Shown in pieces: positions 12,404-48,400 of a stretch of 59,782 nt of DNA. Below the pieces are notes generated by a model that was not told the DNA's origin, made no database searches, and was given only the letters and a program-made list of their open reading frames with translations. Numbering within the stretch: the first letter of the stretch is position 1; each line of letters begins with the position of its first letter. Made by a program: the position numbers and the translations under genes. The stretch comes from a virus. Location of the stretch: positions 1 to 59,782 of the IMG/VR virus record IMGVR_UViG_3300008117_000092; one strand, given 5' to 3'.

Positions 12404-12797
12404 AGATTATCCTTGCCCATCGTCCTGCATCTTGTTCAGTTACTCTAATATCATAATGATCAGGTGCAACAAATGCTCGATTAGTATCTTCAAATCTGCC
12501 CTCTGCGATGGTATCTACCCAGATCAAAAAATGTGGATCGTATATGCTGCGCATTTCAGGTAAAGGGCACACAAAGTCAGCAACAATGTAATCTCTATTA
12601 GATACATCTGCTATTTCACGCATGCGGCGACTCTGACGAATTCTCCCTTCGTAGCTAAAATCCCAGTCATCAAATTTTCTCCTAATTTCATCAGCATTCA
12701 ACCATAGAACATCAGGACTAAAGTAATTTAGTAAATTCAAGGCTAGTGTAGTTTTTCCTGCACCAGGTAAGCCCATAATTAATATTCTAGTTGTCAT
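12378..12797 (-). CDS. P-loop kinase, adenylylsulfate-kinase-like
   Basis: A small 139-residue kinase with a perfect Walker A motif GLPGAGKTT (residues 9-17). NADEIRRKF follows, in the position where adenylylsulfate (APS) kinases have a DGD-like substrate loop, then a strand-aspartate segment LIWVDTIAEGRFEDTNR. Lengths of APS kinases are about 170-200 residues, so this is a short version and may act on another small substrate. Its position between the nucleotidyltransferase and SGNH/carbamoyltransferase genes suggests that it phosphorylates a sugar or an activated intermediate. Gene ends overlap both neighbours by 11 and 26 bases. Confidence 0.78.
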   Translation of the reverse strand: MTTRILIMGLPGAGKTTLALNLLNYFSPDVLWLNADEIRRKFDDWDFSYEGRIRQSRRMREIADVSNRDYIVADFVCPLPEMRSIYDPHFLIWVDTIAEGRFEDTNRAFVAPDHYDIRVTEQDAGRWARIIYEQLSNKI

Positions 12798-19551: not shown

Positions 19552-20763
19552 TTAATACCCCATTGCCAATGCTATTTCTGAATGTGTATTTTTAAAATTT
19601 TGTTTTCTATAAGCATCAGCAAGTTTCATTTTTTCTAAAAATTCTTCGCCATTACTACCTGATCCGTTTTTAATAAATTTAATTATGTTATTAATTTCTT
19701 GTTGATATTTTAAAGTTTTCCAGGAAGTAGTTTCTAGTTTATTCAAAACAAGTTCTTTAGCAGCAGAAGTCAAATTTTGAACACTCATGTGGTCCGGGCT
19801 GTGTAACATATTAAAATATACATCATTAAAATTTTTTGTTTCTGCCCAATTTAAAAGTTCGTCTAAGTAATAAACATTTTGAATGTTTATTGTAAAACAC
19901 AATTGAGTGGTAATATTTTTATGCAATTGTCTATGGGAATGTATACTATCTATAATATTGTTTGCTGTATGCCAACTCGCACCATGTCTTTCGTATTCAA
20001 ATCTTTCTCCTACATTATCTATGCTGAAAGCGATATCTACTCTTCCAAAATTTTTCCACAATAAAATCAAATCTGAAGGCCATTGTGTTGCATTAGTATT
20101 ATAATGAATATCTATGTTGCCGGAGTAACCTTGTTCAACAGCATATTTTAAAAGTTCAATGTGTTCTTGTATAAGCCAAGGCTCTCCACCGGTAAATTCA
20201 ATGTAGCTAATATTAGGAAGTAGTATTCTTAAATTAGCCCAAAAATTTGTTTCTGGATTACGTGGCCATGCGCCTTGTTTGAGCCACTTGTATGCAATAT
20301 GAGTTTTTTTATCAAAATCTCGAGGCATGTACTCTAATTCTTCAGCTGCCCATTTACTACTAGACCATGACCCACATATACGGCACTTTAAATTACAAAT
20401 ATTACCGAGCTTGAGATCTAGAAACCAAAGTTGATTTGGTTGATCATTTTCCCAATCAACCTTTGAATAGAGTTCTTTCAATCGTATTCTACTGTTTATT
20501 CGTTTGCTTGTTCTTCCTGCAGCTTCCTCGTCCCAACATAATTTGCATGTGTCAGGTTTTTTTCCTGCGCGAAACTGCCTACGCAAATTCTGCATGTATT
20601 CGCTGTGATATATAGTTTCTAAATCGTCTTTATTAAGATCAAACTTGACGCCATCGGCGTTGGTAATTTCTTCTCTAGCTAGACAACAAGGCCTAGCAGT
20701 ACCAATAGGACTGGTTTCTATGCTTATCCACGGAAGCATACAGATTGTTTTAGGCAAGTTCAT
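19552..20763 (-). CDS. twitch/SPASM-type radical SAM protein 2
   Basis: A 403-residue radical SAM protein with NICNLKCRICGSW (C123, C127, C130) and an N-terminal auxiliary-cluster segment CMLPWISIETSPIGTARPCC (C8, C26, C27) followed by CKLCWDEE (C73, C76). FTGGEPWLI lies further on, as the family's GGEP strand. It belongs to the same subgroup as radical SAM proteins 1 and 3, which share the Cys-Cys pair in the N-terminal segment. It overlaps radical SAM protein 3 by 14 bases. No precursor peptide gene is visible beside it. Confidence 0.88.
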   Translation of the reverse strand: MNLPKTICMLPWISIETSPIGTARPCCLAREEITNADGVKFDLNKDDLETIYHSEYMQNLRRQFRAGKKPDTCKLCWDEEAAGRTSKRINSRIRLKELYSKVDWENDQPNQLWFLDLKLGNICNLKCRICGSWSSSKWAAEELEYMPRDFDKKTHIAYKWLKQGAWPRNPETNFWANLRILLPNISYIEFTGGEPWLIQEHIELLKYAVEQGYSGNIDIHYNTNATQWPSDLILLWKNFGRVDIAFSIDNVGERFEYERHGASWHTANNIIDSIHSHRQLHKNITTQLCFTINIQNVYYLDELLNWAETKNFNDVYFNMLHSPDHMSVQNLTSAAKELVLNKLETTSWKTLKYQQEINNIIKFIKNGSGSNGEEFLEKMKLADAYRKQNFKNTHSEIALAMGY

Positions 20764-22339
20764 TAAATTCAGAAAACACTTTCCAAAAATTTTCGTTTCT
20801 TATATCATCTAGTTTTTTAATTTGTACCTTAAAGCTTTCAAATTCAACAGTTTGTTTTTTTTCTTTAACAAATTCTTCAATTTCTTTGTTTATGGCTTCG
20901 TCGTCTGTTCTTTTTCCTAGTTGAAAATCATTCCAGTCTGGCCAAGATGATCCTTTATGGCTTTCATATTCAAATTGATTTATTTCAATTTGTATATCTG
21001 AATTGTCAGTTTGAATAAATTTTAATAATGACTCATATCCATTTGTAGCTCGTTTCAATGGATCAATTGGGCGCAACCATTCAATATGCCGTTCATAGGC
21101 AGGTACAATTATCTTATCTTTAAATTCTTTAGGAAAAATATTTGCACGATACCAATTTGGGCTCTGACATAAATTGATATTAAAATCTTTGGCCTTTATT
21201 AACCCTAAGTCTGTCCATTCTTTGTGAAAATCGAGCACGTGAAGCACGTTCATTGCACTCACTGTGGCACTTATATAAAAATCAACATGCGGAACTTCTT
21301 GTATCATTCTGCGACGATTTTCTAAAGTTTGTGCCCAATTTGTTCCTTTGCGCATTAACTCGGCCCTCTCGCCACTTGCATCTAAGCTAGCACCTACACT
21401 AACATTCTTGAAATACTTCCAATAGTCAAATACATGCTTATCTTTATATCTTAATTCACTAAAATTTGTATTATATTGAATTCTAATATCTGTCTTGCCA
21501 TGTTCAATAAGCTTTTCTAACAAGAAATAGTGTTCCTTCATAATTAAAGGCTCACCACCGGCAAAATAAACTTGTTCAAGATATGGTATATGTGGTAGCA
21601 TTTGCTCAAGCATTGCGTCCTCGTTGCCTGCAGTATACTCAACTCGTGCCATTTCTCTTCCAAGAACATCAGGCTTACGATTGTACATTTTTACATGGTC
21701 GCTATACCAATTACTACTAAAAATTGGTCCACAACTACGACAACTAAAATTACATAAATTACTGAATCTTACATCCCAATATCTTATTTGAAATTCAGGA
21801 TGAGTGCCATCAGGGTTAGTTTTTTTTGTATCTTCAATATGATGACCATAGGTTTTATTAGCGTCATTTCTGAGTGAAAAAAATCCATGTTCTTCCCGTT
21901 CGTAACAATTTTTACATTCTTTACTGGGAGTTTCATTCAACATGTTTATTCTAAGTTTTTTAAAGTTGTCATTATTCCATATTTCTGCCATTGTATTTTG
22001 TCGTAAATTACCAACTGGATGCCAATAATCTGCAAAACAGCAAGGATATGCCCTTCCATCAGGAAATCCGTGTAAATGAACCCAAGGCATCATACAAAAT
22101 ACTTTACTGTCCACTAGCTTAAATTTTTGATCGTTTGTAAGAGTATCAAAATTAACATGTAATGGCTTTACTGAATTGTAATCATAACCTATATTAATTT
22201 TAGCCGAGTTTTTTTCTAAGTTCAAGATTTCTTCTAATACACTTTTATTTTTAATATCTACTCCGCTTATATAAGCATCATACGATGGCCAATCTTCGCC
22301 AGCAAACATTTCGTAAGCTTCTTTGTTCAATTTATTCAT
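20750..22339 (-). CDS. twitch/SPASM-type radical SAM protein 3
   Basis: The longest of the set at 529 residues. An extra N-terminal region of about 75 residues precedes the auxiliary-cluster segment (CMMPW at 82, PCCFADY at 100-106, ECKNCYE at 141-147). The radical SAM motif is NLCNFSCRSCG (C196, C200, C203), followed by YFAGGEPLIM. The insertion and a longer C-terminal region (about 430-529, rich in Glu and Lys) set it apart. It overlaps radical SAM 4 by 4 bases. Reaction and substrate are unknown; the domain organisation is the same as in its neighbours. Confidence 0.88.
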   Translation of the reverse strand: MNKLNKEAYEMFAGEDWPSYDAYISGVDIKNKSVLEEILNLEKNSAKINIGYDYNSVKPLHVNFDTLTNDQKFKLVDSKVFCMMPWVHLHGFPDGRAYPCCFADYWHPVGNLRQNTMAEIWNNDNFKKLRINMLNETPSKECKNCYEREEHGFFSLRNDANKTYGHHIEDTKKTNPDGTHPEFQIRYWDVRFSNLCNFSCRSCGPIFSSNWYSDHVKMYNRKPDVLGREMARVEYTAGNEDAMLEQMLPHIPYLEQVYFAGGEPLIMKEHYFLLEKLIEHGKTDIRIQYNTNFSELRYKDKHVFDYWKYFKNVSVGASLDASGERAELMRKGTNWAQTLENRRRMIQEVPHVDFYISATVSAMNVLHVLDFHKEWTDLGLIKAKDFNINLCQSPNWYRANIFPKEFKDKIIVPAYERHIEWLRPIDPLKRATNGYESLLKFIQTDNSDIQIEINQFEYESHKGSSWPDWNDFQLGKRTDDEAINKEIEEFVKEKKQTVEFESFKVQIKKLDDIRNENFWKVFSEFNELA

Positions 22340-23703
22340 AAATTTTTATACCAATCTTGTAAATTAGGAAAACTTGTACAGAAATCTTTTTTCCTTCTTA
22401 TATCATATTGCTGATAAAATTGTTTAAAATCTTTTTGTAATATTGCTTGTTCTGCCGCATTAGCATGTGGTGTTTTAACAATATCAAGATAGTCAATTAA
22501 TCTTTGCACATGGTTGATTTCGTGTTGATGTAGCCATTCGTTATTGTTAGCTTCCAACCAGTGTTCTAACTTGTTTTTATGTGTTGTTCTAATTTCGTCC
22601 GGCAACACCAATGGACTTTGAAACGACGGGAATCTTAAAATATTTAGTGTGAAGTTTGGATAGTCTTTTCCATAACACATTTTCCATTGTACTATGCAAT
22701 CTAAAAAATCTGTAAGACTTTCTAAACATAGAGCATTAACGGTACACATTATGTGCAAGCCGCGTAATTTATTACCAACTTGATTATCTAATATAAGTTC
22801 TATATTATTAATCCAATCATCCCAGTCCAATCCGTCTCTAATATATTCTGCATGAGCGCCGACACTTTCATTACTAGTGTATAAGTCAATGGGTGAGTCC
22901 ACACTTGAAAATAAACGATCGAAATCAACTTGTGCTCCTAGGTTACTATTGATTGCTAGTCTTGTTTGGCTTTTGCCTTTGTTTTCTTTGAACCAATCAA
23001 GCAGTTGCCAAGTATATCCTGACATTAATGGTTCGCCGCCAGTTATACGCAATTCATCTAGTGTTTGATGGAGGTCTGACTCCCACCATTCGAAGAAGGC
23101 ATTGACATATGGGTTATCTTGACCAAATTTAAACAACTGCGCACTGTCATGGCTATGAGTAAAATGATTCCTACCGTCAGACACAAGGTCCATGTAGGGT
23201 CCATTTGTATTGATGTCTTTGACCCAAGTACTACTGAACGCAGGATTGCAATAAGAGCAAGCAAACTGACAAGTACGGTCAAAACTGATTTCAAGAGTTC
23301 TAAGATTGACATCTTCTGAAGCTGGTGTTCTATATGCACGATCAAGATCCTCATCTGAATAGATTACTGTTTTGTAAACACGATCACTGATATTATCTCT
23401 ACCAATGTCTTCAATCTTCCAACAGTATTCACAACCTGCTGGTCGTTCACCCAGTTGCATTTGTCTACGTTCCTCTTTCTTTTTAGGCGTGTTGTGCAAT
23501 GCCCGAGGATTTGCTTGCACATCTGCTATTTCAACCTTGTGAGGCAACGGATGGTGACAACTTGTAGTCATGCCGCTACCTAACCATATAGTCGCATTAT
23601 ACCATTTTGCTCCGCAGAATGAGTCTGACTTGATGTCAATAATTCTGCGCTTGTATTCTAAATCTGTTTCGTTGTTAATTTTGGGCATGATATCTGCATT
23701 CAT
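22336..23703 (-). CDS. twitch/SPASM-type radical SAM protein 4
   Basis: A 455-residue radical SAM protein with CQFACSYC (C145, C149, C152). The N-terminal segment is FCGAKW...TTSCHHPLPH...CEYCW (C30, C49, C91, C94): the Cys-Cys pair of proteins 1-3 is replaced by Cys-His. It shares this pattern, the LHNTPKKKEERR-like stretch and the RITGGEPLMS-type strand with radical SAM protein 5 next to it, so the two look like a tandem duplication. The 29-base overlap with protein 5 supports joint translation. A single Cys-X-X-Cys completes the possible auxiliary site. Confidence 0.88.
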   Translation of the reverse strand: MNADIMPKINNETDLEYKRRIIDIKSDSFCGAKWYNATIWLGSGMTTSCHHPLPHKVEIADVQANPRALHNTPKKKEERRQMQLGERPAGCEYCWKIEDIGRDNISDRVYKTVIYSDEDLDRAYRTPASEDVNLRTLEISFDRTCQFACSYCNPAFSSTWVKDINTNGPYMDLVSDGRNHFTHSHDSAQLFKFGQDNPYVNAFFEWWESDLHQTLDELRITGGEPLMSGYTWQLLDWFKENKGKSQTRLAINSNLGAQVDFDRLFSSVDSPIDLYTSNESVGAHAEYIRDGLDWDDWINNIELILDNQVGNKLRGLHIMCTVNALCLESLTDFLDCIVQWKMCYGKDYPNFTLNILRFPSFQSPLVLPDEIRTTHKNKLEHWLEANNNEWLHQHEINHVQRLIDYLDIVKTPHANAAEQAILQKDFKQFYQQYDIRRKKDFCTSFPNLQDWYKNL

Positions 23704-25057
23704 CCCAAAATTCTTTCATTTCAGGAAAAGTATTCAAAAACCAAGTACCTCTGCGTTTGTCGTGCTCATCAAAGAATCTAAAAAAATCTGCACGTTGTAT
23801 TGTAACATATTCGCGATCTAATTTGCTACCTTCTTGCATCCAATCTACCGCTCGTTGCAATCTTTGTACTTCGTAATCTTTAAAGCCTTGAAATGGCTTT
23901 TCTGGTGTTTCCAGATTGACTTGCATCCAATTGACTACGTCTTGTAGCCTTTTAGTGTACACCGGTGGCAGTATTTGTAAGCTTTGCCATGTGGGCTGTC
24001 TTAATATTGGAGTATCAAACCATACACGTTGATATGTTGTACTATGGCATCTCCGCAAAGATAAAATAGTTTCTAATTGTCTTTTTAATCCTAGTACACT
24101 AAGATTATTCATTGTAATAATGAATGTCAAACTATTACGATGTGGTATGTGAGTTAAGAAATAATCAACCCTGGCCAACACTCGATTGAATTCCATACCA
24201 TGCCTGATATATTCAGCATGTTCAGGTATGCCGCTATCCAAACTCACATACTGCATGAAATGTTCAATATTGGTTTTACATAATTGACTGACATAACTAA
24301 AATATTGTTCCCACAATTTTTCTTCTACACTGAAGTTGCTGGTAACATCAATATGCAAATCAGGTTTGGGAAACGCCAACACATAATCAAACACACGATA
24401 GGTATTGCGATCCATTAACGGCTCGCCCCCGGTCATTCTAAAGTGTTTGAGTTTTGGATATAAACTTGGCCACCATTCCCAAAAGGCATCAACATACGGA
24501 TTATTTTCTCGCACTGGTATAGGTCTTCGGCGACCGGTAAAATGGGAAGCATCATTATGAGTAGTTGAGGTGGGGTATCCTCCAAAACGTCTAACTTCAT
24601 CATCCCAGCTACTACTAAACTGGGGACTACAATAGGAACACTTGAGATTGCAAGCATGATTAAAATTGACTTCCACATAGGAAGGAATACTATCCTCATC
24701 ACCTGTAGCATTTGAAATTTTTTCATAGTGTTCTGCGGCCCAAGGCTCACCTGATCTGTAGTGTCTGTCACTTAAATTTCCTAAATCTTCTTGTGTCCAG
24801 CAATAGCTACATTCACTTGGTCTCTCATGCCTGAGCATGATTTTTCTCTGTTCTTTTTTCCAAGGAGTGTTATGTAATGCACCAGGATTATCTTTTAACA
24901 AACTAGCATCAATTTCATGAAGAGGAGGATGATAACAACTATTAGTTAATCCTGTAGGTAAATGTAAACTAACTTGCTGCCACTTAGCCAAACAGAGGCC
25001 GGGACCTAAACGATCTTTCATTTGTTCAGCTGCTGATAAAAACTTACTTTTTGTCAT
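23675..25057 (-). CDS. twitch/SPASM-type radical SAM protein 5
   Basis: A 460-residue radical SAM protein with CNLKCSYC (C136, C140, C143), preceded by LCLAKWQQ...NSCYHPPLHE...CSYCWTQEDLG (C22, C41, C83, C86). LHNTPWKKEQRK and RMTGGEPLMD match radical SAM protein 4. It is the first radical SAM gene of the row in the direction of transcription, and its start overlaps the end of the glycosyltransferase-like gene at 25054 by 4 bases. The proposed auxiliary cluster site has Cys, Cys-x-His and C-x-x-C. Confidence 0.88.
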   Translation of the reverse strand: MTKSKFLSAAEQMKDRLGPGLCLAKWQQVSLHLPTGLTNSCYHPPLHEIDASLLKDNPGALHNTPWKKEQRKIMLRHERPSECSYCWTQEDLGNLSDRHYRSGEPWAAEHYEKISNATGDEDSIPSYVEVNFNHACNLKCSYCSPQFSSSWDDEVRRFGGYPTSTTHNDASHFTGRRRPIPVRENNPYVDAFWEWWPSLYPKLKHFRMTGGEPLMDRNTYRVFDYVLAFPKPDLHIDVTSNFSVEEKLWEQYFSYVSQLCKTNIEHFMQYVSLDSGIPEHAEYIRHGMEFNRVLARVDYFLTHIPHRNSLTFIITMNNLSVLGLKRQLETILSLRRCHSTTYQRVWFDTPILRQPTWQSLQILPPVYTKRLQDVVNWMQVNLETPEKPFQGFKDYEVQRLQRAVDWMQEGSKLDREYVTIQRADFFRFFDEHDKRRGTWFLNTFPEMKEFWDECRYHAQN

Positions 25058-30774: not shown

Positions 30775-32409
30775 CTAACTGTTGAGTTTGACAATAGCTT
30801 CAATAGTACCTTCTCCATTGTCTAATTTATCCTGTAAGCTTCGACCAATTACATTAAACGGTGAAAGTTCATTTTTTGCGCCAGCTCTAGCTAAACCATT
30901 GCCTGCACTAACTAAGCGATCGCCTTTACGGATCTTTCCTACTACTCTAACGGGAACTCTACCATTTACTGCTACTGGTGGGTGGGTTTCGTCTGAACCT
31001 GCAGCTCCATTCATGAGATAAGCTGCTCTTGTACTTATGACGCCAAACACATCTTCACTCAATTCCTCAGCGGCTGCTGTGATCTCTTTTGCACCACCAA
31101 GTGCAACAACTGTACCAGGATCATATGGTTGATCAGTTTCAAATCTTTCTGCCAAGTCAGCATACTGTGCTTGTACAGAAACACCATAAAAAGTGTTAAA
31201 CCACATTCCTGTGCTGCCTAGATTAACTGTGGTATTTGACGTAGGCAGTATTGACCCTGACGCAAATACTGTATGAACATTGGCATTTGCAGCAAAAACA
31301 TTACCAATCAACATACTCTGACTGAAAACATTGCTCCATCTATTAGTAGTATTGCCCAAAGTGTAAGTTACATTGGCGCTGGGATTTAAACTTGCTGTAA
31401 ATGTACTTACACCGGTTCCACTACCAAGTTGGTTGTCAACGTAACTTTTTGTAGCTAATGTAAGAGCAGGCGACGAAACTGTGGGGTTGGCATAGGCTTC
31501 GGGTAATCCTGTTTGATAATTTCCACGCAAGAATGGAGTTTGAACACCTCCAGTTTTTAGGCTTAAAATTAAATCTCGATTGTTTGTCTGATTTCTTAAA
31601 GTTACCACACCGCTGCTGACAGAGCCTACAAAATCACCAGATTGCCCAAATGTAATGCCCCCATCGCTGGCAGCACCACTCAGTGTTAGTGCTCCTGTGA
31701 TTGTGCCTGATGTGTCGTTTCTCAAGAAACTGGTACCTGGTACTTTAACTCCACTTACTGATAAAGATAACGCAACATCTGCATTTCCGTAATAGGCCTG
31801 ACTCAAATCAGTGCTTAAATTCAAGCCTCGGTTGATTTGTGCAAATCCGCTTACGGCTGTAGTAAATGTGTTTTCCTTGCTCCAGATACCTACTAAAACA
31901 TTGTTAATAAAAAACTTTAAAACCACGTAAGTGGCTGCTGGACTCAATGCAGCCACAGTGTCAGGAATAGCACCTGAATTACCAGTTGCAGTTGTAGCAG
32001 CTGGTCCAATAGTAATCCAGGTACTGCCATTCCATACTTTAAGCTGGCCGTTAACAGTATCATACCATTGTTCGCCTGGTACTGGTGTAGTATTAAAACT
32101 ACTGGCATAGGTCATTGTGGCAATAGTTTTCCAAACTGCATTAGCTGTGCCTTTGGTGGTTGCTGTGTTAATGTTCAGGTATTTGCTTGAAGTGTTCCAC
32201 CAAAGTTGTCCAGGAAGCGGCGCCGATGGCTGACTTCCGTTGGCAAAATTTTCTAGCAATCTTACCATGTTTTGATTCAAAAATATACCGTAGCCGGGAT
32301 AGTTTTTACCAACTAGTGTTAGACTGGTGTTTGTGTTATCAATTGTTCCGTCGGGCAATCCACCACTAATTAAATTAGTCCCGTTAGTTAAGGTAATATT
32401 GTATGCCAT
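30775..32409 (-). CDS. tail fibre protein with peptidase-G2-like C-terminus
   Basis: The 544-residue protein has three regions. Residues 1-80 form an anchor domain (TNTSLTLVGKNYPGYGIFLN, LLENFANGSQP, PGQLWWNTSS) that is shared with the fibre protein at 34602-35717. The middle has fibre-type repeats such as PGEQWYDTVNGQLKVWNGST and a ISGGLPDGT-like start. The C-terminal 130 residues (YADLAERFETDQPYDPGTVV onward) resemble the peptidase G2-like intramolecular chaperone domains of phage tailspikes and fibres, which trimerise the fibre and may cleave themselves off. An ATAAATA motif lies 24 bases upstream of the start. Confidence 0.78.
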   Translation of the reverse strand: MAYNITLTNGTNLISGGLPDGTIDNTNTSLTLVGKNYPGYGIFLNQNMVRLLENFANGSQPSAPLPGQLWWNTSSKYLNINTATTKGTANAVWKTIATMTYASSFNTTPVPGEQWYDTVNGQLKVWNGSTWITIGPAATTATGNSGAIPDTVAALSPAATYVVLKFFINNVLVGIWSKENTFTTAVSGFAQINRGLNLSTDLSQAYYGNADVALSLSVSGVKVPGTSFLRNDTSGTITGALTLSGAASDGGITFGQSGDFVGSVSSGVVTLRNQTNNRDLILSLKTGGVQTPFLRGNYQTGLPEAYANPTVSSPALTLATKSYVDNQLGSGTGVSTFTASLNPSANVTYTLGNTTNRWSNVFSQSMLIGNVFAANANVHTVFASGSILPTSNTTVNLGSTGMWFNTFYGVSVQAQYADLAERFETDQPYDPGTVVALGGAKEITAAAEELSEDVFGVISTRAAYLMNGAAGSDETHPPVAVNGRVPVRVVGKIRKGDRLVSAGNGLARAGAKNELSPFNVIGRSLQDKLDNGEGTIEAIVKLNS

Positions 32410-32476: not shown

Positions 32477-34600
32477 TTATGAGTAGTTTCTGTTGTTAGT
32501 ACCATAATCGTTTGGATTTTCAGTTGCAGTTGAATCTACACCTCCCGCCCCCATTGTTTTCCATTCATTATTTACTTTGACAAAAACAGAGTTGACTGCT
32601 TTCCATACTCCACTGACTTTTACAAATACTTCCGGAATTTGTTTCCATTCTCCACCAACTTTGACACTGCTTAATCCAAGCGGTTCAATTTCTAAAACTA
32701 CACGGCCATCTAAACCAGGGTTTCCTGGTCCAGGGTCTGTTGTAGTTGAATAGTTGTAAACACCTCCCCGACCTGGGTGAGCACCCATTCCATAAGAAAC
32801 TGTTGCTCCTATGCCACCTGCACCCCCTTGACCGTACCTTGAGTTGTAATACTGCGTGCCTGCGCCTGTTGTGGCTGGATATACGGGATAATTGCCTCCA
32901 CATTCACCGAAAAACCCTGTTCCGCCCCAAGGGGTGTATCCGTAATGGAATCCCAGGCTATCCCCTGATGCTCTACTCATGCCACCTTGGCCGCCCGGAT
33001 AACCACCGCCACCACCACCGCCACCGCCACCAACATCACTGGCTGGTACGTCTCTACCATTTTCCCCGCGTTTGTCACTGCCTATTGAAATTCCTATTAT
33101 TTTAGATATATCAACATAAGTGCTATCTGAAATTCCCTCTACTGGATCAAACGATCCACCTTCGATGCCTATAAATGCATGACCACGTCTACGCTTGCCC
33201 CATGACTCGGTTCTAGTAGATCCAAATTTTGTTTGAAGCACAGCTCGCTCAGCTGCCGAAAACGCACATGCATCAGCTGACAATAAAATTAAAATTTTTC
33301 CTGCCGGAACAGAATTCAAATAGCCTTCTAATCCAGAGGTCCATGGGTTAGCCCAGGTATCAAAACGTCTATAACTTTCTAATGCCAAAGTAGTTGGATT
33401 TACAACAGCCACGTTGTGTCCCCTACCGGTTGATGCAATTCTACGAGTACCTAATGTAAAATAATACCTATCCCAATTGCCACCATCTATATTGTAATTT
33501 GAACTATGAACTGTTATTTGAGTATTCATAGCATTTTTAGTTATGTCAGCATTTGAATCACCAGTTCCTTGAGTGCCGTTTGCAAACTGATCTGGGGTCA
33601 TGCCAGACCCGCCGCCACCGCCACCACCACCGGCAACAATTACCGGGTTACTGTTGACCAATACCCCTGATGCGCCACCACCTCCTCCACCGCCAGTACC
33701 GCCACCATTGTATTGCGGGGTGTACCCACCAACACCATAATATCCTGAGCGTCCTCTACCGCCTTGTCCGCCTCGACCGCCGTTGTAGCTTTGTGTTGCT
33801 TGACCACCTACCAATGTCCTACTAGCACCCCCTACACCACCAGGTGTATTACCTCCATCGTATGGAGCGCCTCTAAAAACTGTACTTGGTTTACCACCTG
33901 ACCCTACAAACACTTCTACCTCATCGCCGGCCTCGACTGTAAAGGTTGTTGTATTGTACAAGCCCGGTGAACCTCTACCACCAGGTGCTGCATAAGTGGT
34001 GCTTCCGCCGTACCAGTTACTAGGCTGATCATATCCAGCGCCGCCTGCACCTCCTGCTCCCCATACATGAGCGGTTATTATGGCAGGGTAATCTGCAGTG
34101 AAAACATATCTACCAATAGCACCAGTTCCAGGAGTTCGTGTACTCCATGCTACGTCACCAATGGACGTCACTGTTTGAAATTCTGAACCTTGTCTAATAG
34201 TAAGGACTGAACTAACTTCTCGAGAAATAGTAACAGCGACTCCGGCCACATCACCCCCATTGTTTGCATTAATGACTATATCCATTAAGCCTCCGGGGTG
34301 ATATACTCTGGTGCTTGTTCCTAAATTAGTTCTATTAATACCGGTATCAAAACGGTACAAGATAACTGTCGTTCCGTTTACTGTAACCGATCCGCCATTG
34401 TCAACTGTGCCAACGACATAATAATAACCTTGTTGAAGTTCAATCTTGCGTCTGATCGTTATTGACTCAACTATCGAACGATCGCTATTCCAAACAGCGT
34501 ATGTGTTTTGAAATGAACCCCAACGGCTGTCTGATCTCGGCACAAGTGTTTCAGTACCAGGCTGCACTACATATTCTTTTATGATTTTTTTTCCGGACAT
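32477..34600 (-). CDS. glycine-rich tail fibre protein with ILEI/PANDER-like domain
   Basis: A 707-residue fibre. The N-terminal 170 residues form a folded region (MSGKKIIKEYVVQPGTETLV onward). A Gly-rich region with poly-Gly runs follows from about 180 to 330. Inside it, about residues 360-480, is a separate domain with RGHNVAVVNPTTLALESYRR, PAGKILILLSADACAFSAAE and RRRGHAFIGIEGG, which matches the ILEI/PANDER fold (as in FAM3/POMGNT1 stem). In POMGNT1 that fold binds glycans, so a receptor role is plausible. The glycine-rich part then resumes to about 620, and the C-terminal repeat is VKVGGEWKQIPEVFVKVSGV. No Shine-Dalgarno sequence is seen; the TGA of the preceding gene is one base away. 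Confidence 0.78.
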   Translation of the reverse strand: MSGKKIIKEYVVQPGTETLVPRSDSRWGSFQNTYAVWNSDRSIVESITIRRKIELQQGYYYVVGTVDNGGSVTVNGTTVILYRFDTGINRTNLGTSTRVYHPGGLMDIVINANNGGDVAGVAVTISREVSSVLTIRQGSEFQTVTSIGDVAWSTRTPGTGAIGRYVFTADYPAIITAHVWGAGGAGGAGYDQPSNWYGGSTTYAAPGGRGSPGLYNTTTFTVEAGDEVEVFVGSGGKPSTVFRGAPYDGGNTPGGVGGASRTLVGGQATQSYNGGRGGQGGRGRSGYYGVGGYTPQYNGGGTGGGGGGGASGVLVNSNPVIVAGGGGGGGGSGMTPDQFANGTQGTGDSNADITKNAMNTQITVHSSNYNIDGGNWDRYYFTLGTRRIASTGRGHNVAVVNPTTLALESYRRFDTWANPWTSGLEGYLNSVPAGKILILLSADACAFSAAERAVLQTKFGSTRTESWGKRRRGHAFIGIEGGSFDPVEGISDSTYVDISKIIGISIGSDKRGENGRDVPASDVGGGGGGGGGGYPGGQGGMSRASGDSLGFHYGYTPWGGTGFFGECGGNYPVYPATTGAGTQYYNSRYGQGGAGGIGATVSYGMGAHPGRGGVYNYSTTTDPGPGNPGLDGRVVLEIEPLGLSSVKVGGEWKQIPEVFVKVSGVWKAVNSVFVKVNNEWKTMGAGGVDSTATENPNDYGTNNRNYS
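33001..33033 (-). repeat. poly-glycine codon tract 1
   Basis: A GGT/GGC run encoding about ten consecutive glycines within the fibre gene. On the + strand it reads as CCACCGCC repeats. Such tracts can form a polyglycine-II bundle in phage fibre tips. Confidence 0.6.
33607..33712 (-). repeat. poly-glycine codon tracts 2 and 3
   Basis: Two further GGN runs, at about 33607-33633 and 33674-33712, encode strings of glycine in the same fibre protein. They frame the start of the ILEI/PANDER-like domain. Confidence 0.6.
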
Positions 34601-35722: not shown

Positions 35723-36427
35723 TTATCCTATGCTACTTAAATTTGTTAGTGTTTGAATTCGTACTGTATAATCAATCTGTATCAATCTGTTTAGGCTTTT
35801 TTGTACAGGATGAAATATAACATGTGTTAACAACTTGCCTGTAGTGGCCAAGCCGGATGATCCATCGTTGCTACGAGCTTTTAAACCCAATTCATCAAAG
35901 GTATATGTATCTTCTAAATTTGTGCTGTTATCAAATGCACTTTGCCCAGCGGGTTCACCGTAATCTAACAAACAACTTATTACAATATCTGTGTAAACAC
36001 GGCCCGGCACATGCCTAATTTCTATCTTGTTTCTAGTTGGGTCGGCATTTAATGCGCTGGTATTATCTACAATTTTAGCAAAAGTTGGATTATACAAGTT
36101 ACTGTTACTGGTGTTTACATTAGGCGGCAGATAATTAATAATACCAGTTGGATCTACACTGGTACCACCATTACCAAAATGCATTTCGTAAATGTAGTTC
36201 TGTCCTTTGTTTGCTAGATTGTAAGCTATTGCTTCACTAATATTTTCATAGTGAATAGCATTACGTTTATCAATGTAAACTTGTCCAGATTCTGGATCAA
36301 ATATCTTGATGTGACCCTGAACGTGTATGCCACTAACTTCGTTGGGCTTTGAATTGTTTTCAGTAGAATTTTTGTTTAAATCTTCCATATTTTTATCCAT
36401 ATTACTATTTAGTTTGGCATCTGTCAT
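35723..36427 (-). CDS. virion structural protein, 234 aa (in gp8 position)
   Basis: It begins with about 35 polar residues, then HVQGHIKIFDPESGQVYIDK, AIAYNLANKGQNYIYEMHFG, and a beta-rich C-terminal part ending LIQIDYTVRIQTLTNLSSIG. The protein follows the giant protein by ATGA, in the place where T4 has gp8 behind gp7. T4 gp8 is 334 residues; I see no clear sequence match, so only the position suggests a gp8 role. It is most likely a baseplate wedge or fibre-attachment component. The true start may be one of two later methionines in the polar N-terminus. Confidence 0.6.
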   Translation of the reverse strand: MTDAKLNSNMDKNMEDLNKNSTENNSKPNEVSGIHVQGHIKIFDPESGQVYIDKRNAIHYENISEAIAYNLANKGQNYIYEMHFGNGGTSVDPTGIINYLPPNVNTSNSNLYNPTFAKIVDNTSALNADPTRNKIEIRHVPGRVYTDIVISCLLDYGEPAGQSAFDNSTNLEDTYTFDELGLKARSNDGSSGLATTGKLLTHVIFHPVQKSLNRLIQIDYTVRIQTLTNLSSIG

Positions 36428-39400
36428 GGTATATAACTAGGCTCCGATCTAATAAATTGTGCACCTAAAGTAGTACTGTTTTCAAGCGTTGTGCCAAATT
36501 GCTCCCAAATGTTACTACGCAACAGTGGAGTGTTCGATAGAACCACGTTACCATTGGCGTAAATTGATCCTAGTGTTGTGATAGACAACACATTTGCTGT
36601 GGTGCTTGAAACGCCATTGGTCAAACTGGCTATGTTTACCCTTGTGCCTAAATTTGCAGCAGTTTGGAAAATGCCAGTTACATTTCCAACAGCAACTACA
36701 TTGCTGGAAATTACACTACCTAATATTCTCGCGTTACCAGTATTACCAATAAATTGTGTTATATAGTCACCTATATTAGCTGTTATGTTTGCGCTCAGTG
36801 TCAGCTTAAAAGTTACATCGGAAGTCACCTTAACATTGCCTGAAACTGTCACAGGATTAAAAATCTGTGCGTTTGGTATCAACTGTGCTGAGCTAGAGTC
36901 TGACACAGTGTTTCCTGTTAATATAATGTTGGCGATGCCTGTACCATCTACACCTCTACGCAATTGTCTTAACGAATTCAATTTGATCAATTGAATATTT
37001 GCCGAGTTTACGTATGCGTTTGCGTTAGCATACACATTCCCCTTGGTGAGATAAACGTTGCTGTTTAGTGCAATTAAGGTGTTAACAGGCACATTGGTGT
37101 TTGCTGTCCAAGCTACAGCAGTTGACATTTTGGCAAAATCATATTTTTGATAGTAATATATTCTTTCGCCGTTAATAAACACTATACCTGGGTTTCCTAG
37201 CTCGGCACCCGGAGTTGGTAACTTGCTGGCATCAACAACTAAAATTTCGTCATCAGCTAAATTTAAATTGGCCGACAACGTTGTAGTTGCATTTGCACTT
37301 ATTCTAGTATATTCAATGTTTGCACTCATTGGTTGGAAAACTCTGTAACCATAAGTGGCGGTGTTGCCGGCGGTGTTACTAAACACTCGCATTTCCACAG
37401 CATCATACAGTCTGCCCGGAATCAATTCTTCAGGTGCATGACTTGAGTACGCATCTACATAAGCACCACCAACGATATTGATATCCTGCGGTCTGATACC
37501 CAAGTTACTGTCTAGATATGTGCTGTAAATGTTTGAATCCAGTGAGTCTTTGAGATCTAGATAACTAATTTTGACATCAACATTACCGCCAGTGTTTATT
37601 TCTGCTATGTTCGATGCCACTGTCACTCCGTTGATAGTGACCGCATTGCCTTCGGATACTGCGAATGCCGGCGTTGCATATATGATAGACAGATATTGTG
37701 AATTGACCACAGATTCTAAAACATAGGCATTGGCAGTATTGTTAGCCTGTGTAATCCAATCGCCCACGTTGGCGGTGACAGGATTATCTAACAGTATTTT
37801 CCATGTTGATTCAACTGGTTGCCCGGTCAATGTCATTGAATCTCTACTTACATTAACAATTGTAAAATATCCATTGTTCTGGAAATTAAACGGAACATTG
37901 GCTTCAATTCTAATGCTTTGATCTACTTCAAAACCTGAATTAACAAAATCAAAAGCCGCAATATTACCGCTGTCAATTGTTAATCCTTCGTAATTGAATG
38001 AAACAATGTTGCTAGAGACTTCAAATGCATTAGCTCTAAAGTTGATACCTTGTACAAAGTTACCAGGATAACTAACCCCATTTATCAATTGACTTAGATT
38101 TTTTCCTGGCATACCAACTTCAGGATCATAATATGCTATTACTCGGTCAATTGCATTCAGTAACACATTTCCACTATCAAGTTTGGAATATCTAGTATAG
38201 TCAAATACGGCTTGACTGGTCACATTGGCGTTAGTAGCCAAAAACGCTTGGTTATTGTAAACAACAATGTTTCCTGAAGTTATATAAACGTTACTTGCAT
38301 CAACTGCTGTATTGCCTGCTACCACTATAGTATTTGCATAGGCCGTGTTTGGTTGCCATACAACAAGATTACTTGTGTAATCTACTCTATCAAATTTAAG
38401 TGTAGTATCAATGCTTCTTACTAAATTGTAACTTAAATAAGCTAAACTTAAATTTCCTGCAGGAGCATAGTATTCATTTTTTAACAGTGGATATGCAGTT
38501 GCACCAACTCCGTCACCATTGATAAACACATTTGGTGTCGAAGTATATCCTGATCCAGGATTGGTCACTGTAATTCCGCTGATTTTTCCGTTGCCAAATA
38601 TTGTGGTAATAGCAGCAGCACCTGAACCACCGCCGCCGGTAATTTCTACATTTGGAGGCAATGTATAATTTAATCCAATATTTCCAATTATGTAATCTGT
38701 AACTTTGAATTTGTAGTGATCGTACCAGTCTGAATATAATTCGCTGGTAAACAAATCTGCATCCGCAGGATTTGCCACGTCCGGACTTTTGTACACTCGG
38801 CTTTGACTGTCATAAGCACTTGGTAAATCAAAATCAGTCCAATTTCCATATGCATCGTCTTGTTTTCTATAAATTGGAATGTATTCTCTAACGATGGTTC
38901 TATAAGGTTTTACCTCATTGATATAATCATTGTAGAAATTTTGATTGTCTCTAACATAATTAGGAAACTCCGCTAATTCTCTGAGATTATGAAATACGTC
39001 AATAAAACTTGTTTTAAAGATCCAGTCTGGGCTCTTTTGCTCGGCAAAAATGTAATTGATTAAAGTAAGGAATAGAGTGTTAAACTCGGTGCTTAAATCA
39101 TTGATCAAAATTTCTCTATAAACACTATCGTAAATATTTTGCAGTTCTTTAACTGGCTGAGAATCGTATTGATTAGTGTCATAGACTATGCTATCGTATC
39201 CTGCTCCTACGCTGACATCATAAACAGTAGAATTAATTTGTGCTGTGCCGTTTTGAGCTGCAATTAGATCAAATGAACCATCGGCTAACACTTCGTAAAT
39301 TAACCAAGTTCCTTGTCCACTGTCCAGTACTTTTATATAATCTCCTTGGGACACCAAAAGAGCCTGAGTATCGCTGTAAAGATTGACAGTAAAGTTTATG

Positions 39401-42400
39401 TCTTTGCCGTTTACAAATGATTCAGCATACCAATCTGTTGGCGTCCAAAACAAAGTTGTTGCATAACTTTGTAATTTAAACACCTCAAAACTGTCTGTAG
39501 CGGAATTAAAACTGTAAATGCTCCATCTTCCTTCATATGTACTATCACTGGTTATTAACACTTTATAACCATTAGGATAAGCCTCTGTGTCAAGATATGA
39601 TAAATCGTCAACGTTGTCTGTTTGTGTATCAAAACCTGATGAAGGTAGAGGATCATTTAAGTATAAAGAAAATGGATTTCTTGATAATAGAATAGGATAT
39701 CTAATTAAGATTTCATTAAGCGTTTCTACATAATTTTGTAATGCTGGTAATCTATTTAAAAGCAATGATTGTCTTGGACTGTTTAAGATTCCTAGCTTGT
39801 TCTGAACTGTTAATAAAGGATCTGGTATAGAATAACCATTGATATCAAATCCACTCAAACTGTCTTTTAATTTTGTTATCACTCTTTGAGGAATAGATTG
39901 TGCATCTGATCCTTGTTGCACCAATTGCCATTCGTTGTGAATTAAATTGGTATTTCTAACTGTGGACGTATTCAAATGTATCGCAATATCATTTCCACTT
40001 AATGTTTCAGTTATGTTATAAACTGCCACAGCATTAGGCTTTAATAAAGCAAGATACGGAATGTCTTGATCTTTTGGATTAGTAATATAAGATTCAAGAG
40101 ACTTGGAACTCAATGTTCTTAATGCTCTATTAACATCTACAGTTGTTTTTCCGGACACCCAATAGTAATATTTTTGACTAATAATACCAGTTACTGGGTC
40201 TACAATTGTTACAGATGAATAAGCAGAATCATCTGCGTACCTTGCTATGCCAGTACCTTCAGATATAGCATACTGACTTGGTAAAAAGTCACTTTCTACC
40301 CATTCATATACTGTTACCTGGCTACCTGGAAATAGACTGCCCCAATTTTTTACTCTGTACTGAATCGAACCTTGTTCGTAATCAATAAAACTTACTGTTG
40401 ATAAATCAAACCAGGTTTTACCCACTTGCTTGTTTGACCAATAAAAGTTTGTGTTATTGATTGTGTCAGATCTATTAGAACTATTATAGCTGGCAGGATC
40501 ATATTCTTCTTTGAAATCCAATTCTTGTTCTACTACTCCCAACAGTTTGCCTTTAGCTGGATCCAAATAGTCAAAAAAGTCTATAATATTCTGATTTACT
40601 GTGTTGTATATAAATGAACTATTTACAGCACCAATATCTACTCTTGGTTCTTTATTCCTAATCAAGGTCCATCCAGATTTTGAATTTTGATTGTAATAAA
40701 AATATATGCTGCCGCCTTCGGGTACAATGTCATAATCATTGGATACACCAACTGTCAAATACTCGCCTCGCAATGCAATACCGGCTCCAAAATTAAAACC
40801 TGTGTCAAGATCCGGTCCTGACAATTTTTGCGAATATGCAAACAATGAAGGGTTGTCCACATCCTCGTATGGGTTGGGCATAAGATTGTATAGGTATACT
40901 GCTCCGCTATCTGTGATAAGTTGTACAAACTTTGTACCAGTTCCGTCAAAAGTTGTTGCTGTGCCTTCGTTGGCATCAAAAGTAGTGAGGATAGCTGTAT
41001 CAGCTCCGTTACTACCAATGGCCAATGTATTGATGGTCTGATCAACTGTTAGTGATGTACCAAAGGTTTCTCCGATGCTTTCTGGATGCTTAATTGTTTG
41101 AACAAATTTATACTGCTGTATACCTAGATCAGACAGCGCGGTTCCACTAGATTTGCCATTTAAAATATTAAGTTTTTCAGCAATTACTACTACATCGCTG
41201 ATTATTTTTAATTTGTTGTCTACATTAGATGCAGTTACCCCTGGTATGTTGGCACCATTGATATTATTAATAACAGAAGCAAGTGTTGTGCCTGTGAATG
41301 TAACTATCACATTGTTGATACTGAGTTGATCTCCTAGCGTAACTGTCGGATTTGACACTGTGCCTATTATTTGACCATAAACTCTACCTACATTGAGACA
41401 TCTAGTAACCAGACCTGAAATATAATTGGCTTCTTTGTAATTAGGACTAGACACATATAAGTTACAACCGCTGTTGCACATGGCTAGCAAAGACCCAAAT
41501 TTTCCGCCTTCTAGTCCAACTGTCTCGGGATAAATTGTTTCGTCGTATATAATCTGATTGAATTCTACTTTTATACGATTTCCGGGTGCCAATACTGGAG
41601 TTCCTGGGTCACCGTACTGAATTGAATTTGAGCCAATCACTGTATACAAAGGAGTTACTCCAGCAGGTGCATTTGTAATATCGTAAATTAATTCATCATT
41701 CAGATATACTCTATATACTGGTCCAAAATTATAAGGAAACGTAAACGTATTTGTTACACCGTTGGTAACAATCTCTGCCACAGTAACGTGCCAGGTATCA
41801 ACAGTTCCAGCATTGACAAGTGAGTCGACTGTGGCAGTACTAGAACCAATTGCAAAAATATGGCCAGTGGTATCACAGGCCAATGCCGAACCATAACTTG
41901 AATTACTCGTTCCTGAGATACTAGAGAAAAACGAGTATTTGTTTATTCTCCTTAATATAGAAATTTCAAGCCCCACAGTGGGAGGAGATGTAAATGTAAG
42001 GTTGGTTACAGTGCCAACCGTGCTTACAGTAACAGTAATATCATTGGCTGGCGAGGCTCCGCCCAGACTGGTTCCTGGTATAGTAAGTGTGTCGGCAGCG
42101 GTATAACCAGTACCAGCATTCTCCAAGATAACTTCATACACTAAAGAAGAAACATCAAAGTATTTTTCTACAAAAAATGTAGCGCCGGATCCAGAACCGC
42201 CAGTGGCAGAAACTCCAGTATATGTAGCAGCAGATCCTGTTGCAGTTCCTGTAGAAGTAAATGCTGTAACACCTTGTGTGGCTGTACCTAGTGTGTAGTC
42301 TATGTAAGGAAAATATTGTGAATTTAAGGTGATTACATTCACTACAAAATCAATAGGATAAGTTGCAAATTCACTGAGCGTGTAACTAGTAGCACTTGAA

Positions 42401-45400
42401 GTAGTTATAATTTGCACAGAGCTCGACCTCGGATAGTCTAAGGTATAAGCAAAAACTTTATCAGATCCTGGCATAGCCAAGCTTGCGCCAAACTGATCTC
42501 CTGCACCAGGCGTGTCATTGGCCAATATTTGTATTAAAATTTGATTTTCAAATATGTACACAGCGCCGCCAGCCAATGAATCAGGAGCGCCTACAGCAAC
42601 GAAGCTAACACCGTCTACGGTAGCTGTGGCAATAACTTTACCAAAACTATCCAAATTAGCATTAGCGCCGGAAAGGAAACCAGATGCATCCCATGTGTTT
42701 GAAATATTTCTAGCAAATACACTTACTCTTCCTGCACCACTATCAGGGGCACCGCCATATAAAAATAAAGCGTTGTTGTCGAATGCAACTGATCTACCAA
42801 AATGATCGTTACCCACATATTGGCTTGATCCCAATTGAATTTTGTCTTCGTATTCCCATGGATCAGTTTTTCTATATACTCCCCAATTGCCTTGACTGTC
42901 TAAGTTTTCTACCCAAACAGTATCATTAGTGATCCAACCTTCGTAAGGTATATTGTTTACTAGATCGACAGGAGTATCATATACACTACTTTGTAATTTG
43001 TATAAAATACCGTTGCCTATTACTGCCTCGTTGTCAATAAGCTCTTGTAAATTTTTCGCAATAGTAATTAAAATTCTATCACTGTCAATCACATAATCTA
43101 CTTTATAGATACCGTCGTATCTATCATCAAATTTGGTAAGTGCTACTAGATCATTGACTTGTAAACCATGCGGAACGTTCATGCCTAGCTCTGCCTGAGA
43201 TCCTACATTATATCTTAAAAGGAACGGTATTCCAGGTATGTTAGTGGCTCTAAACACATTCCATTGATTGTTTAAATCTTTGGCAGCCCATATGGTATAT
43301 CCAACCCCAATATCTGAAACAAATGTTGATTCACTGGTATCTTTAATATCAAAAACTGTTGCGTCAACATCGTCAAGATTGACAAATCCAGCCACAGGCA
43401 GTGGTTTTAATTCTGGAGGTTCATTTCTATTTTCAACTCGTAAAAAATCAGATGTAAAACTACCACTTCGCTTGTAAACATCAATTTCCGTAAACGACTT
43501 GACATCAGTCTGAGGATTAGATGCAACATCTACCAATTGAAATACCGCAGGATTGTTATCAAACTCTGAATCAGAAAGTACGAATTCAATAAATTGATTT
43601 ATGTCTGTGGAACCATACTCGCCAACTCTCACTGCCCAATTTTCATACAAGTTTAAAGGACTAGTATCCAAGTTGTTAAATGTGGCTCCTTTTAAAGCAT
43701 TGATTGCGTTTAAAGATCCGCCTTGTTTTATTAAGCCTTGATAAAATTTACTTTGAGTAGTGACGTCAATACCTAGATTTGTAAAATATTGTCTAGGTCT
43801 AAATCCAATTAATCCATTACTGAACAACTGAATTTCTTCATTGATAGGTTGATCATTGATATCGTAAAAACGAAGTGACTGGGCTGCATTTGTTGCCAGG
43901 TTGTTCAAAATACCAGTTTTTATTTCATTGTTGGCCAATAACTCCCAACTTTTAACTTGAAAACTATCAGCTGCACTGATGTTTTCTAAAGCAGCATAGT
44001 ATCTTTGCTTGTAATTAATTATAGTACCTTTGAGGTAATCTACTCCGGGCGACCACTCAGTTATTTCGTCGCTGCTGTAAATGTAGCCTGGCAATTCTAA
44101 ACTGCCGTTCCATTGACTGGTTTTTGCGCCGACCATTTTAATTCTATATTGTCTATTTCCAGATTCTGGAAGATAAATTACGTCCCTGAAAACAGTAACA
44201 TTATCTAGAATTAAAATATGTTCGTACTGCACTAGATTTAGTTCAGCGAATCCAATTGTTTGATTTGATATTGCACGAACAACAAATTCGTTGGTATCTC
44301 TAACAATTGTAAAGTTATTTTTCACAATTGGTTTGTAATTCACATCCATTAGCCTACTACCAGTTGGCGTATTAACTATCTCGTCAACCTGTGAATTGGA
44401 ACTAGTAATTTTCAACGTGTCGGATATAGGGCTGAGAACTATAATGTTTCCAGATTTCCAACCTTGGCTAGTCCAATATAAAAATTCTTTGGCGCTTAAC
44501 ACCCAATTTTTAACTTCGTTCAGTAAGTTTTCTCTATCATCAAATGTGAATCCTTGAGATAAGAGGTACCTTTGGTAACTAATTAAAAAGTCAACAACTT
44601 GCTGTGTTGTACTATATTCAAATCCATAAGGAATAGTTTGTACAATTCTTCTTGAATCTTTAAACACAGTAGCAGACTTACCACTTACATTTATTTTGTA
44701 AGCATTGTTATTTTCTAAACTAGGAATAATCCTGAAATAAGGATCATTGGTATTATATCCACTCACTGTATATCCATTTGCAGTTTTTTCCACAATTACA
44801 GCAGAATAAACTATTTTTGCAAGAGGTGCTCCTTTGTATAATTCAATAGAATAATTTTCGTCAGGAATAATGATGCTGTCATTGATACTGCTTGGGCTAA
44901 CCTGTTCAGCTAGTAATTCTAAGAATTTTTTATCTGAATACCCTGCCATCTTGTAGCATAACTGAACTGATATGTTATTCAATATGTTTTTGACATAATC
45001 ACTGGCATCGCTTATGCCAGTATTTTTTACATAATCTCTTATCCAGTTCACATAACCTGCACTTCGATTTATTGTGCCGCTGGAATCAGTGTAACCGTTG
45101 ACTCTTATGCTGGTTGGTTGTAAGTGCTTGTTATTGTCAACATCTAAAAATTGGCCAAGCACATCATTTCTATAGTATTTTTTTACATCAGACAATAATG
45201 AAAAATAACGTGCTGGTTTACCAATTGCTAAGGCATATTGAACAGCATATGGAAAATCACTGCTTCTACGCCAACTTAATTCAGTTGGTCCAATATCGCC
45301 AACTGCATAACTGGTATTTGCTTTGTCGCTTGAAAAATCTGTTACCAAAAATTCCGAAGGGGGTCTTAGATTTCCGCTGTCATCGACTGGAATAATTGAG

Positions 45401-48400
45401 GTAAGTCCTGGGCGACTATACCTTAGATCAATGCCGGCACGAGCTCCGCTGTGAATGTATCCTGATTCTAAATCGCTCCAGAGTACAAAGTTCCCGCCGG
45501 TATAAGGAGCAGGTCCATACCTATCATTCCAATAGTCGGGCTTTTGACTAAATCCTAACATTTCCCAGGGATGAGTATGTGGGCGATCTGTATCAAAGAA
45601 ATATCTGAATACACTACGCCAAGTACCTGGTAAATTTTCTGCGTTAACAACATCTTTGAATTTTTTGTAATTCCATGTAAAAGCATCTGACGCGGTAAAC
45701 ACATCATTGGTAGTGTAATCAACTCTGTTGGTGCCTACCCATCGTAAAAAACTTTGGCTTAACAAATGGTTGTATTCATTTAGTGTGTAATCTAAGATTC
45801 TAAATTTACCTGGAACATAATCGTTGATGTTAAACAAATTAATATCATACTCAACTTTGATATTGTTGTAAATTCTTCTTTCTAGTTCTAATAGAAAGGT
45901 ATCTCTGTGATCACCAAATGCTGGAGTAATACTACCGTCATGTCCTTGAATTACCTGTATTGGTGTTTGATAGGTATTGTCTAAATAAATTTCTGGAACA
46001 AATTTTGGGTACAATCCCAGTTTTGTTGGTGTTTCCGGAACATAACTACCGTCTGTGTTATTGTATTCTACAATCGTTAAAATATCATTATAAAGAAGAT
46101 TAAATGTATCTTGGATAACCACTGCTGGCCTGGTTTGATCAAAGTAATAATCTTGCTCTTTAACCAGTAATGTTTTTGATGTTACTCCATCTAGTGTGCG
46201 TGTAAGATACACAAAAACTGCTTTGTTACTGATAACATTATCTTGAAATATATTGGTAATTTCATAGGATCTTATATCAGTGTCAAAAACTTGGTAACTT
46301 GGCAAAGTTACTTTGTCATCGTCTCCGTGCGGAATCATATCACTGTAATACCAAGGAAAACTGTCGTTTTTAACAGCGTTGATGGTGGCCATTATTGCAT
46401 CAACAGATTCAGACACGTTATTGGTGTCAAGATCGAGGTTAACAGCAAGTTCTAAAAATTTTATTTTAAATTGATTGTATTCTTTAGATGCAAGTCTAAT
46501 CGAATCAATAAAATTAGCTACAGGATGATTGAGAAATAGACTAGAATATATTATAGGAGCACTTTGTTGCAAAATACTACCACCCCTAGCCGAGTATTTT
46601 ATATCTCTGATATTACTTTTGCCTGGTACTTCTCCAACAATGTCTAAACTGTTATTTTTGAATTCAATTAAATGATTTCTTACCTGACCTAGTGTTAGTA
46701 CATCAATATCTAAATTTAGACTGTTCACATCTAAATTTACAGGTATTTGATAAAATGCTGTATCTGACACAGCAGTTTTATTATAGATGCTAATAAAAAT
46801 AACATCATTTACTGTCAGTAAAGAAGGATCTATTAGAATAGCCAATTTATCAACAGCTTTTGTTATTGCAAATTTACCAACTGCTACTGGTTTGTTATTG
46901 ATCACAACTTTGATATTAGGAATTTCTACGCTGATGTCTGGTAGAATATCTACTGGAAATAAGTTTGTAGATCCGTCATAAACAAAATTAAAAATTTGAT
47001 ATTGTTTGCTAAAATTGTTATTAATTACCCAATTGTTAGTTCTAGTACTTGTAGATCTAGATAGATTTTTTTGTAAAAATCCAGTATTGATGTTGACAGT
47101 CTGAGCTATACCTCCTAATAAGAAATAGGTAAAAGTATCTAGGTTGAAATTGTTTTCAAATTCTATGTCTCCTTGAGTTAGCAAATTTTTATAACTAACC
47201 GGAAAACCTAATACACTGTCGTTGCTTCCTGTTCCTTCTTTGTAGGAAAATATTTTGGTGCCCAAAAACTGTGAACCGTTATAAACTGAAAAGTCGCTAA
47301 AACTGACACCATCACTGTTGATTACGTCAAACAAAGGAGGTTGGTTGACTGACGTTTTTTGTTGGCTTTCTATCCAATTGGTGCCATTGAAATGCCATTG
47401 TTTCTGTCCGTTTACACCGCTATTGACCACAATGGTGTGGCCTTCACTGACTAGAGCATCATTGGCTTCTTCAATATAGGCTCTATAAATTGATGTAACT
47501 GGTGAGGGAGTAGATGCCTCTACTATTGAAAACGTAAAAATTTTATTTCTGACCTCAAGATTTTCATCTTGACTGAAAATAATCCTGTCACCGTGCGTTA
47601 ATGTAAGAGACTGAACATCTGTGGCCGAACCAGTACCAGCGGTTGTTCCGGTGGCTGTGAATCTTACTTTGTATGCTGTGCCGGTAGTGCCCGTTTCTAT
47701 TCCAGTGGCTGTAAATACAGTGCCAGCAATACTGCTTGCTGCACCAATTGAAGTCCAATTAGTATTTCCTACCATGGCAATAATATATTGACTTCCTATT
47801 TCTAAACCAGCTGCAGAAATCAAAGATGCACCAACTGTGGACCAGTTGCTAGTTCCTAATGTAGTGATATCATAGGTTCTTCCTACAACAAGGTCTGACG
47901 AATTTCTAATTAAACTTATAGTGAGTTCAGTGGGTGGATCTGGCGGACCTGCCACAATAACACCTTGCACTTGTGTGTAAGCATTTGTAATCAAGTCGTC
48001 TAATATGTCAACTGGTGCTTTGGCTTCAGTTCCAAAATTAAATAATTGAATGTTTGGATAAAATTCTAAAATTGGTCGCTGTGCTCTATAACTTTGATTT
48101 AGGATCAAATCCGTATTATTGTATTCAGCTGTTTTTTCAATTACATTTACATGAAACCATCTATTGCTTCTTGACCAACCATTTAAATCAATACTACTTC
48201 TATTAATAGTAATGTAATCAAGAGATGCCAAGTTATTATTGTTATCTTCAGGGACTACCAAGTCAGCTTCTGCTATCAACTTGATTGAGTCGCCTACTCC
48301 TTCTACATAAAAAGTTTTATTTGCGTAAGATTCAGTAGCAGTAGAATCAAATTGTATTTTGAGACCATTGGTAAAAACTACGCCGTTTGGACTAACATAA

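Follow-up and report, generated by a model that had tools for sequence, protein, structure and literature searches.

The window analysed here comprises the first 59,782 bases of the 63,887-base IMG/VR virus record IMGVR_UViG_3300008117_000092. A glycine-rich gene resembling tail fibres and adhesins (positions 32477..34600, minus strand; 707 aa) belongs to a block of tail genes that shows synteny with jumbo myovirus relatives. It contains an ILEI domain, and this part of the protein matched a tail-family PHROG (phrog_1154, "proximal connector"). Judging by the gene neighbourhood and this match, the product is presumably a tail fibre or adhesin carried on the virion. All of the motifs quoted in the original prediction were found in this minus-strand ORF (34600-32477): RGHNVAVV starts at residue 393 and FDTWANP at residue 413, PAGKILILLSADACAFS covers residues 432-448, and RGHAFIGIEGG residues 472-482. 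Glycine-rich stretches lie on either side of the domain, as had also been described. The next fibre-like gene (30775..32409, minus strand; 544 aa) matched the Peptidase_G2 autoproteolytic domain with 27.8 bits against a cut-off of 25; from its sequence, this domain is possibly a self-cleaving chaperone.

The fibre consists of several modules, all encoded on the minus strand. Residues 1-155 (34136..34600) form a predicted beta-rich N-terminal module that is PA14-like by its relatives: PF07691 (PA14) was matched by two of the six members of alignment A7 (best E 3.1e-6) and not by the window copy, and a profile of this region matched a solved Lap adhesin chain with an E-value of 4e-4. The module is missing in the related locus L020. 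It is followed by the first half of a glycine-rich scaffold (residues 156-345; 33566..34135), which had phmmer matches to nine relatives and is conserved in alignment A2. The ILEI cassette spans residues ~359-506 (33083..33526); these bounds were set by comparison with the relatives in A2 that have an empty site and lack the cassette. The second half of the scaffold (residues 516-642; 32675..33055; alignment A2) leads to C-terminal VKV.G.WK repeats (residues 640-707 and the stop codon; 32477..32683), for which phmmer found 15 relatives and which matched phrog_25859. Neither scaffold half of the window matched PF21722 (Gly_rich_2); the kin L020, L038, L033, and L022 passed the gathering threshold of this model. 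By its sequence, the scaffold may fold as a polyglycine-II-like lattice.

The core of the ILEI domain (PF15711; residues 393-481; 33158..33424) was recognized with an E-value of 5.6e-11 and 43.2 bits, compared to a gathering cut-off of 27. The model scored 48 bits in a scan of the whole record, and none of 14 control genomes was matched. A phmmer search of PDB with the whole protein found POMGnT1 (E 0.0015) and, weakly, FAM3C and FAM3A; a strigolactone esterase entry, the best whole-protein PDB match, and a weak AbTIR match were taken as artefacts of glycine runs. A profile built from 15 phage domains retrieved POMGnT1 (1.8e-8), FAM3A (1.2e-6), FAM3C (1.4e-5), TMEM2 (1.3e-4), and FAM3B (5e-4) from PDB, and each of the 15 domains matched PF15711 on its own. 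A scan of IMG/VR with the single ILEI domain sequence gave no matches, and alignment scans were required; in the reference genomes, alignment A3 found nothing and alignment A4 found one bacterial locus.

The predicted structure agreed with this assignment. An AlphaFold2 model of residues 350-506, made with 14 relatives, had a mean pLDDT of 80 and a pTM of 0.80. Foldseek yielded 21 PDB matches with E<=0.001, all of them POMGnT1 stem, FAM3A/B/C, or TMEM2; the best was 5ggn (E 8.6e-8, TM 0.73, 23% identity), and FAM3B and FAM3C were matched as well. No structure outside these groups was below 0.5, the nearest standing at 0.57. The beta-beta-alpha fold that had been proposed is thus borne out by a model that significantly matches this family only. 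Neither of the outcomes named in the original prediction as refuting it, in sequence family or in fold, was observed. The model of the full-length fibre (mean pLDDT 51.6) was too poor for a fold search. We consider the assignment to the ILEI/POMGnT1-stem type secure, in accordance with the original prediction. The domain shares fold and sugar-site residues with the POMGnT1 stem (PDB 5ggf, 5ggj, 5ggn, and others; R129/D179/R207), from which it differs by its low identity and its context: the latter belongs to a human Golgi enzyme and is no virion protein. FAM3 proteins are defined by conserved disulphides and by being stand-alone secreted proteins. The phage domain has its Pfam family and fold in common with FAM3A/B/C (ILEI, PANDER), which are secreted animal signalling proteins, whereas it is itself one module embedded in a 707-aa fibre, with a single cysteine (C445) in residues 350-506.

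In the POMGnT1 stem, GlcNAc is reported to be contacted by Arg129, Asp179, and Arg207 (PMC9802357); PMC9437275 also gives Arg129 and Asp179. Sugar binding in vitro was reported for FAM3A, FAM3C, and the domain of worm Fam3L2 (PMC9802357). We transferred the residues by the PDB phmmer alignment, using the numbering of the 5ggj construct. R393 (33422..33424, minus strand) and D443 (33272..33274, minus strand) were aligned with Arg129 and Asp179, respectively. R471 (33188..33190, minus strand) was paired with Arg207 by spacing, each residue lying five positions N-terminal of a conserved Phe; the pairwise phmmer alignment is ambiguous here by one residue (R470-R472). All three are invariant in the 15 phage domains, in which 15 of the 121 fully occupied columns are invariant. 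The naive probability that three contacts all fall in such columns is 0.0016, a value that ignores the clustering of conserved residues in functional or structural cores and treats non-independent sequences as independent. When a T4-type connector and two bacterial domains were added to the set, five columns remained invariant, and three of these were the equivalents of R393, D443, and R471. The conservation supports a sugar site without proving it, since invariant residues could instead be structural; the earlier idea of POMGnT1-like sugar binding is strengthened by it. Our searches yielded no binding measurements on phage ILEI domains. By sequence comparison with its animal relatives, the domain of the window presumably binds a sugar.

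Using the neighbouring 234-aa gene, we gathered 80 syntenic loci; few of their fibres could be read across the slot in which the cassette lies. In L047, L021, and L027 the slot is empty, and NAI runs straight into GSD/RGENG (alignment A2); the same holds for L020. In L023 the slot is occupied by an ILEI domain. L038 carries a PA14-like module at the corresponding place, a weak match of 16.2 bits that lies below the Pfam cut-off, and in L033 a PA14-like module is located slightly further on. The L038 relative (11762..13906 of that locus) also had weak C-terminal matches to Hint domains. The 234-aa neighbour is 91% identical to that of the window in L047, where the slot has no domain, vs. 82% in L023, where it holds ILEI. 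Because the closer relative is the one lacking the domain, slot content does not track kinship in these cases. The alignments fit a cassette inserted in a loop of the glycine-rich scaffold, which would make the domain an exchangeable receptor-binding module, a kind of module known from other phages. It is tempting to go further, and we do so tentatively, as a suggestion that we regard as possible but somewhat doubtful: the fibre may be a general display platform, in which a fixed loop takes entire lectin-type domains (ILEI, PA14-like, or none), which phages would exchange with one another separately from the remaining genome; host range would then shift by domain swap and not by loop mutation.

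Of the genes in its block, the fibre diverged most, with 47% identity to L047 over 369 aligned residues, compared to 67-91% for the eight neighbours compared. L018 and L026 lack the gene, and the reading frames on either side of its place are 35 and 17 bases apart there; this group of viruses can therefore do without it. Absence and divergence together mark the gene as accessory and quick to change, which would be expected for an adhesin. The contrast with the neighbours can also stem from recombination or relaxed constraint instead of host-range selection.

Among named phages, the 234-aa neighbour had 53% identity in Sinorhizobium phage Phosso, 51% in Agrobacterium phage Atu_ph07, and 45% in Asteriusvirus phages, e.g., 121Q. 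The genomes of all these phages are about 350-490 kb. No glycine-rich fibre was found at the fibre position in Phosso and Atu_ph07; by eye, the genes present there resemble the 371- and 544-aa proteins that flank the fibre. The window contains a single ORF of 4423 aa (36424..49695, minus strand), and a giant structural gene of ~13 kb occupies the same place in both phages. A run of four neighbouring genes that match radical-SAM PHROGs is located at 19552..25057 (minus strand); several radical-SAM genes also lie close to this tail block in Phosso and Atu_ph07. A Nol-like carbamoyltransferase (13518..15002, minus strand; phrog_1601, E 1e-89) and a nucleotide-sugar epimerase match (6146..7120) are possible sugar-modification genes.

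ILEI domains were found in other phage proteins as well. A tblastn search with the domain gave 33 records, including a Streptococcus host-range protein, a Lactococcus receptor-binding protein, tail proteins of Alteromonas phage AD45, and T4-type hinge connectors; BFVD contained 33 viral matches with E<=0.001. The closest domain in a named phage record was that of AD45 (35% identity), which belongs to a tail protein of more than 2,000 residues in a phage with no other demonstrated relation to ours. Searching the open literature for phage ILEI domains by name returned no relevant paper; the relevant one uses the name POMGnT1-Stem (PMC9437275). This paper, which applied AlphaFold to the adhesion devices of streptococcal phages, described CBM_1 of TP-778L as similar to the POMGnT1 stem, with which it shares the Arg and Asp. 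The TP-778L Tal protein was found independently in our sequence searches (L003), and it is a close precedent: a module of this type in a phage adhesion protein, with the sugar-site Arg and Asp conserved. TP-778L is, however, a siphophage of a Gram-positive host, and its module is flanked by beta domains and collagen-like linkers in an extended, linear part of Tal, whereas that of the window is inserted inside a glycine-rich scaffold in a jumbo-type myovirus. A further phage protein with an ILEI domain is the T4-type proximal connector gp35 of the long tail fibre (Pseudotevenvirus, L004; PF15711, 42.4 bits), but there the domain has a hinge position and no glycine-rich scaffold. In sequence pattern, the scaffold itself resembles the gp38 adhesin of phages S16 and PP01, a polyglycine-II sandwich in which glycine-rich motifs are split by variable segments and receptor-binding loops protrude from the lattice; these loops are short, unlike the whole domain of the window fibre.

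Taken together, the data make it likely, in our opinion, that the ILEI domain has a sugar-binding role in adsorption, as a carbohydrate-binding cassette that this jumbo-type myovirus carries in an accessory adhesin with a glycine-rich scaffold. We favour a sugar-binding adhesin because ILEI relatives are annotated as receptor-binding and host-range proteins and because of the TP-778L CBM_1 precedent; a display scaffold is suggested because the glycine-rich scaffolds of S16 and PP01 gp38 show variable receptor-binding loops. The scaffold would hold the ILEI module out towards the cell surface, and R393, D443, and R471 would grip a sugar on the host envelope, thereby helping the phage to adsorb. 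The identity of this sugar, a position of the slot at an exposed end, and an effect on host range are parts of the scheme that we infer. The domain had been proposed as a possible receptor-binding head of the phage. Such a role is plausible; as the gene is missing in the syntenic kin L018 and L026, however, the fibre looks more like an accessory adhesin than like the only head, and ILEI also occurs in T4-type hinge connectors away from the fibre tip.

Because of these hinge connectors, the main alternative is that the domain has a structural or spacing function in the fibre, as a joint, stabiliser, or oligomerisation module, and does not bind sugar. In T4-type gp35 it lies near the N-terminus, far from the tip, and a structural role is as likely there; the phrog_1154 family to which the domain matched is itself a proximal connector, and the conserved residues may be structural. 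Nevertheless, the scaffold exists without the domain in L047, L021, L027, and L020, so ILEI is not needed for building the fibre, L038 has its slot filled by an unrelated lectin-like module, and the invariant positions coincide with the sugar contacts of POMGnT1. We regard a structural role as rather unlikely. Less probable still is that the fold was reused for a protein or another non-sugar ligand of the host surface. In animals, FAM3 proteins serve as secreted signals (PMC9802357), and S16-like gp38 scaffolds bind outer-membrane proteins; against this, FAM3A, FAM3C, and the Fam3L2 domain also bind sugars in vitro, and the sugar-contact residues are conserved in the phage domains. A chance or composition effect of a low-complexity protein can practically be dismissed: glycine-rich proteins do yield false matches, such as 8if6_C, the top whole-protein phmmer match, but the part matched by ILEI is not glycine-rich, separate sequence and fold evidence agree, and the retrieval of POMGnT1, FAM3, and TMEM2 by the 15-domain profile, with all 15 members matching PF15711, rules it out.

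If a sugar-binding cassette is indeed displayed in this way, a POMGnT1-stem-type sugar-binding module and a glycine-rich display scaffold are joined in one protein. The relatives would then provide a natural series (empty, ILEI, PA14-like) for comparing the effect of the recognition module on host range. Phage ILEI domains themselves are already known. Within the open papers searched, what appears to be new is the placement: an entire lectin-type domain sits as an exchangeable insert within a glycine-rich scaffold, and relatives have this place empty or filled differently.

The view of ILEI as chiefly an animal feature is corrected by its distribution. The original prediction described such domains as known mostly from animals; this does not hold, since they occur in dozens of phage tail proteins, several of which are named ILEI in UniProt, and, within one bacterial phylum, in 54 of 82 genomes; their use by phages has also been published (PMC9437275). 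A direct transfer from animals finds no support, the domain being widespread in bacteria and phages. The phylum is that of a KSB1 genome, in which ILEI lies inside a C25-peptidase protein. In L111 (3..4460) two ILEI domains are found, one on each side of the C25 peptidase domain, and this and other genomes of its phylum have one to three ILEI domains each. The viral contigs L102-L104 and L106-L110 encode a small protein (about 220-315 aa) with an ILEI domain at its end.
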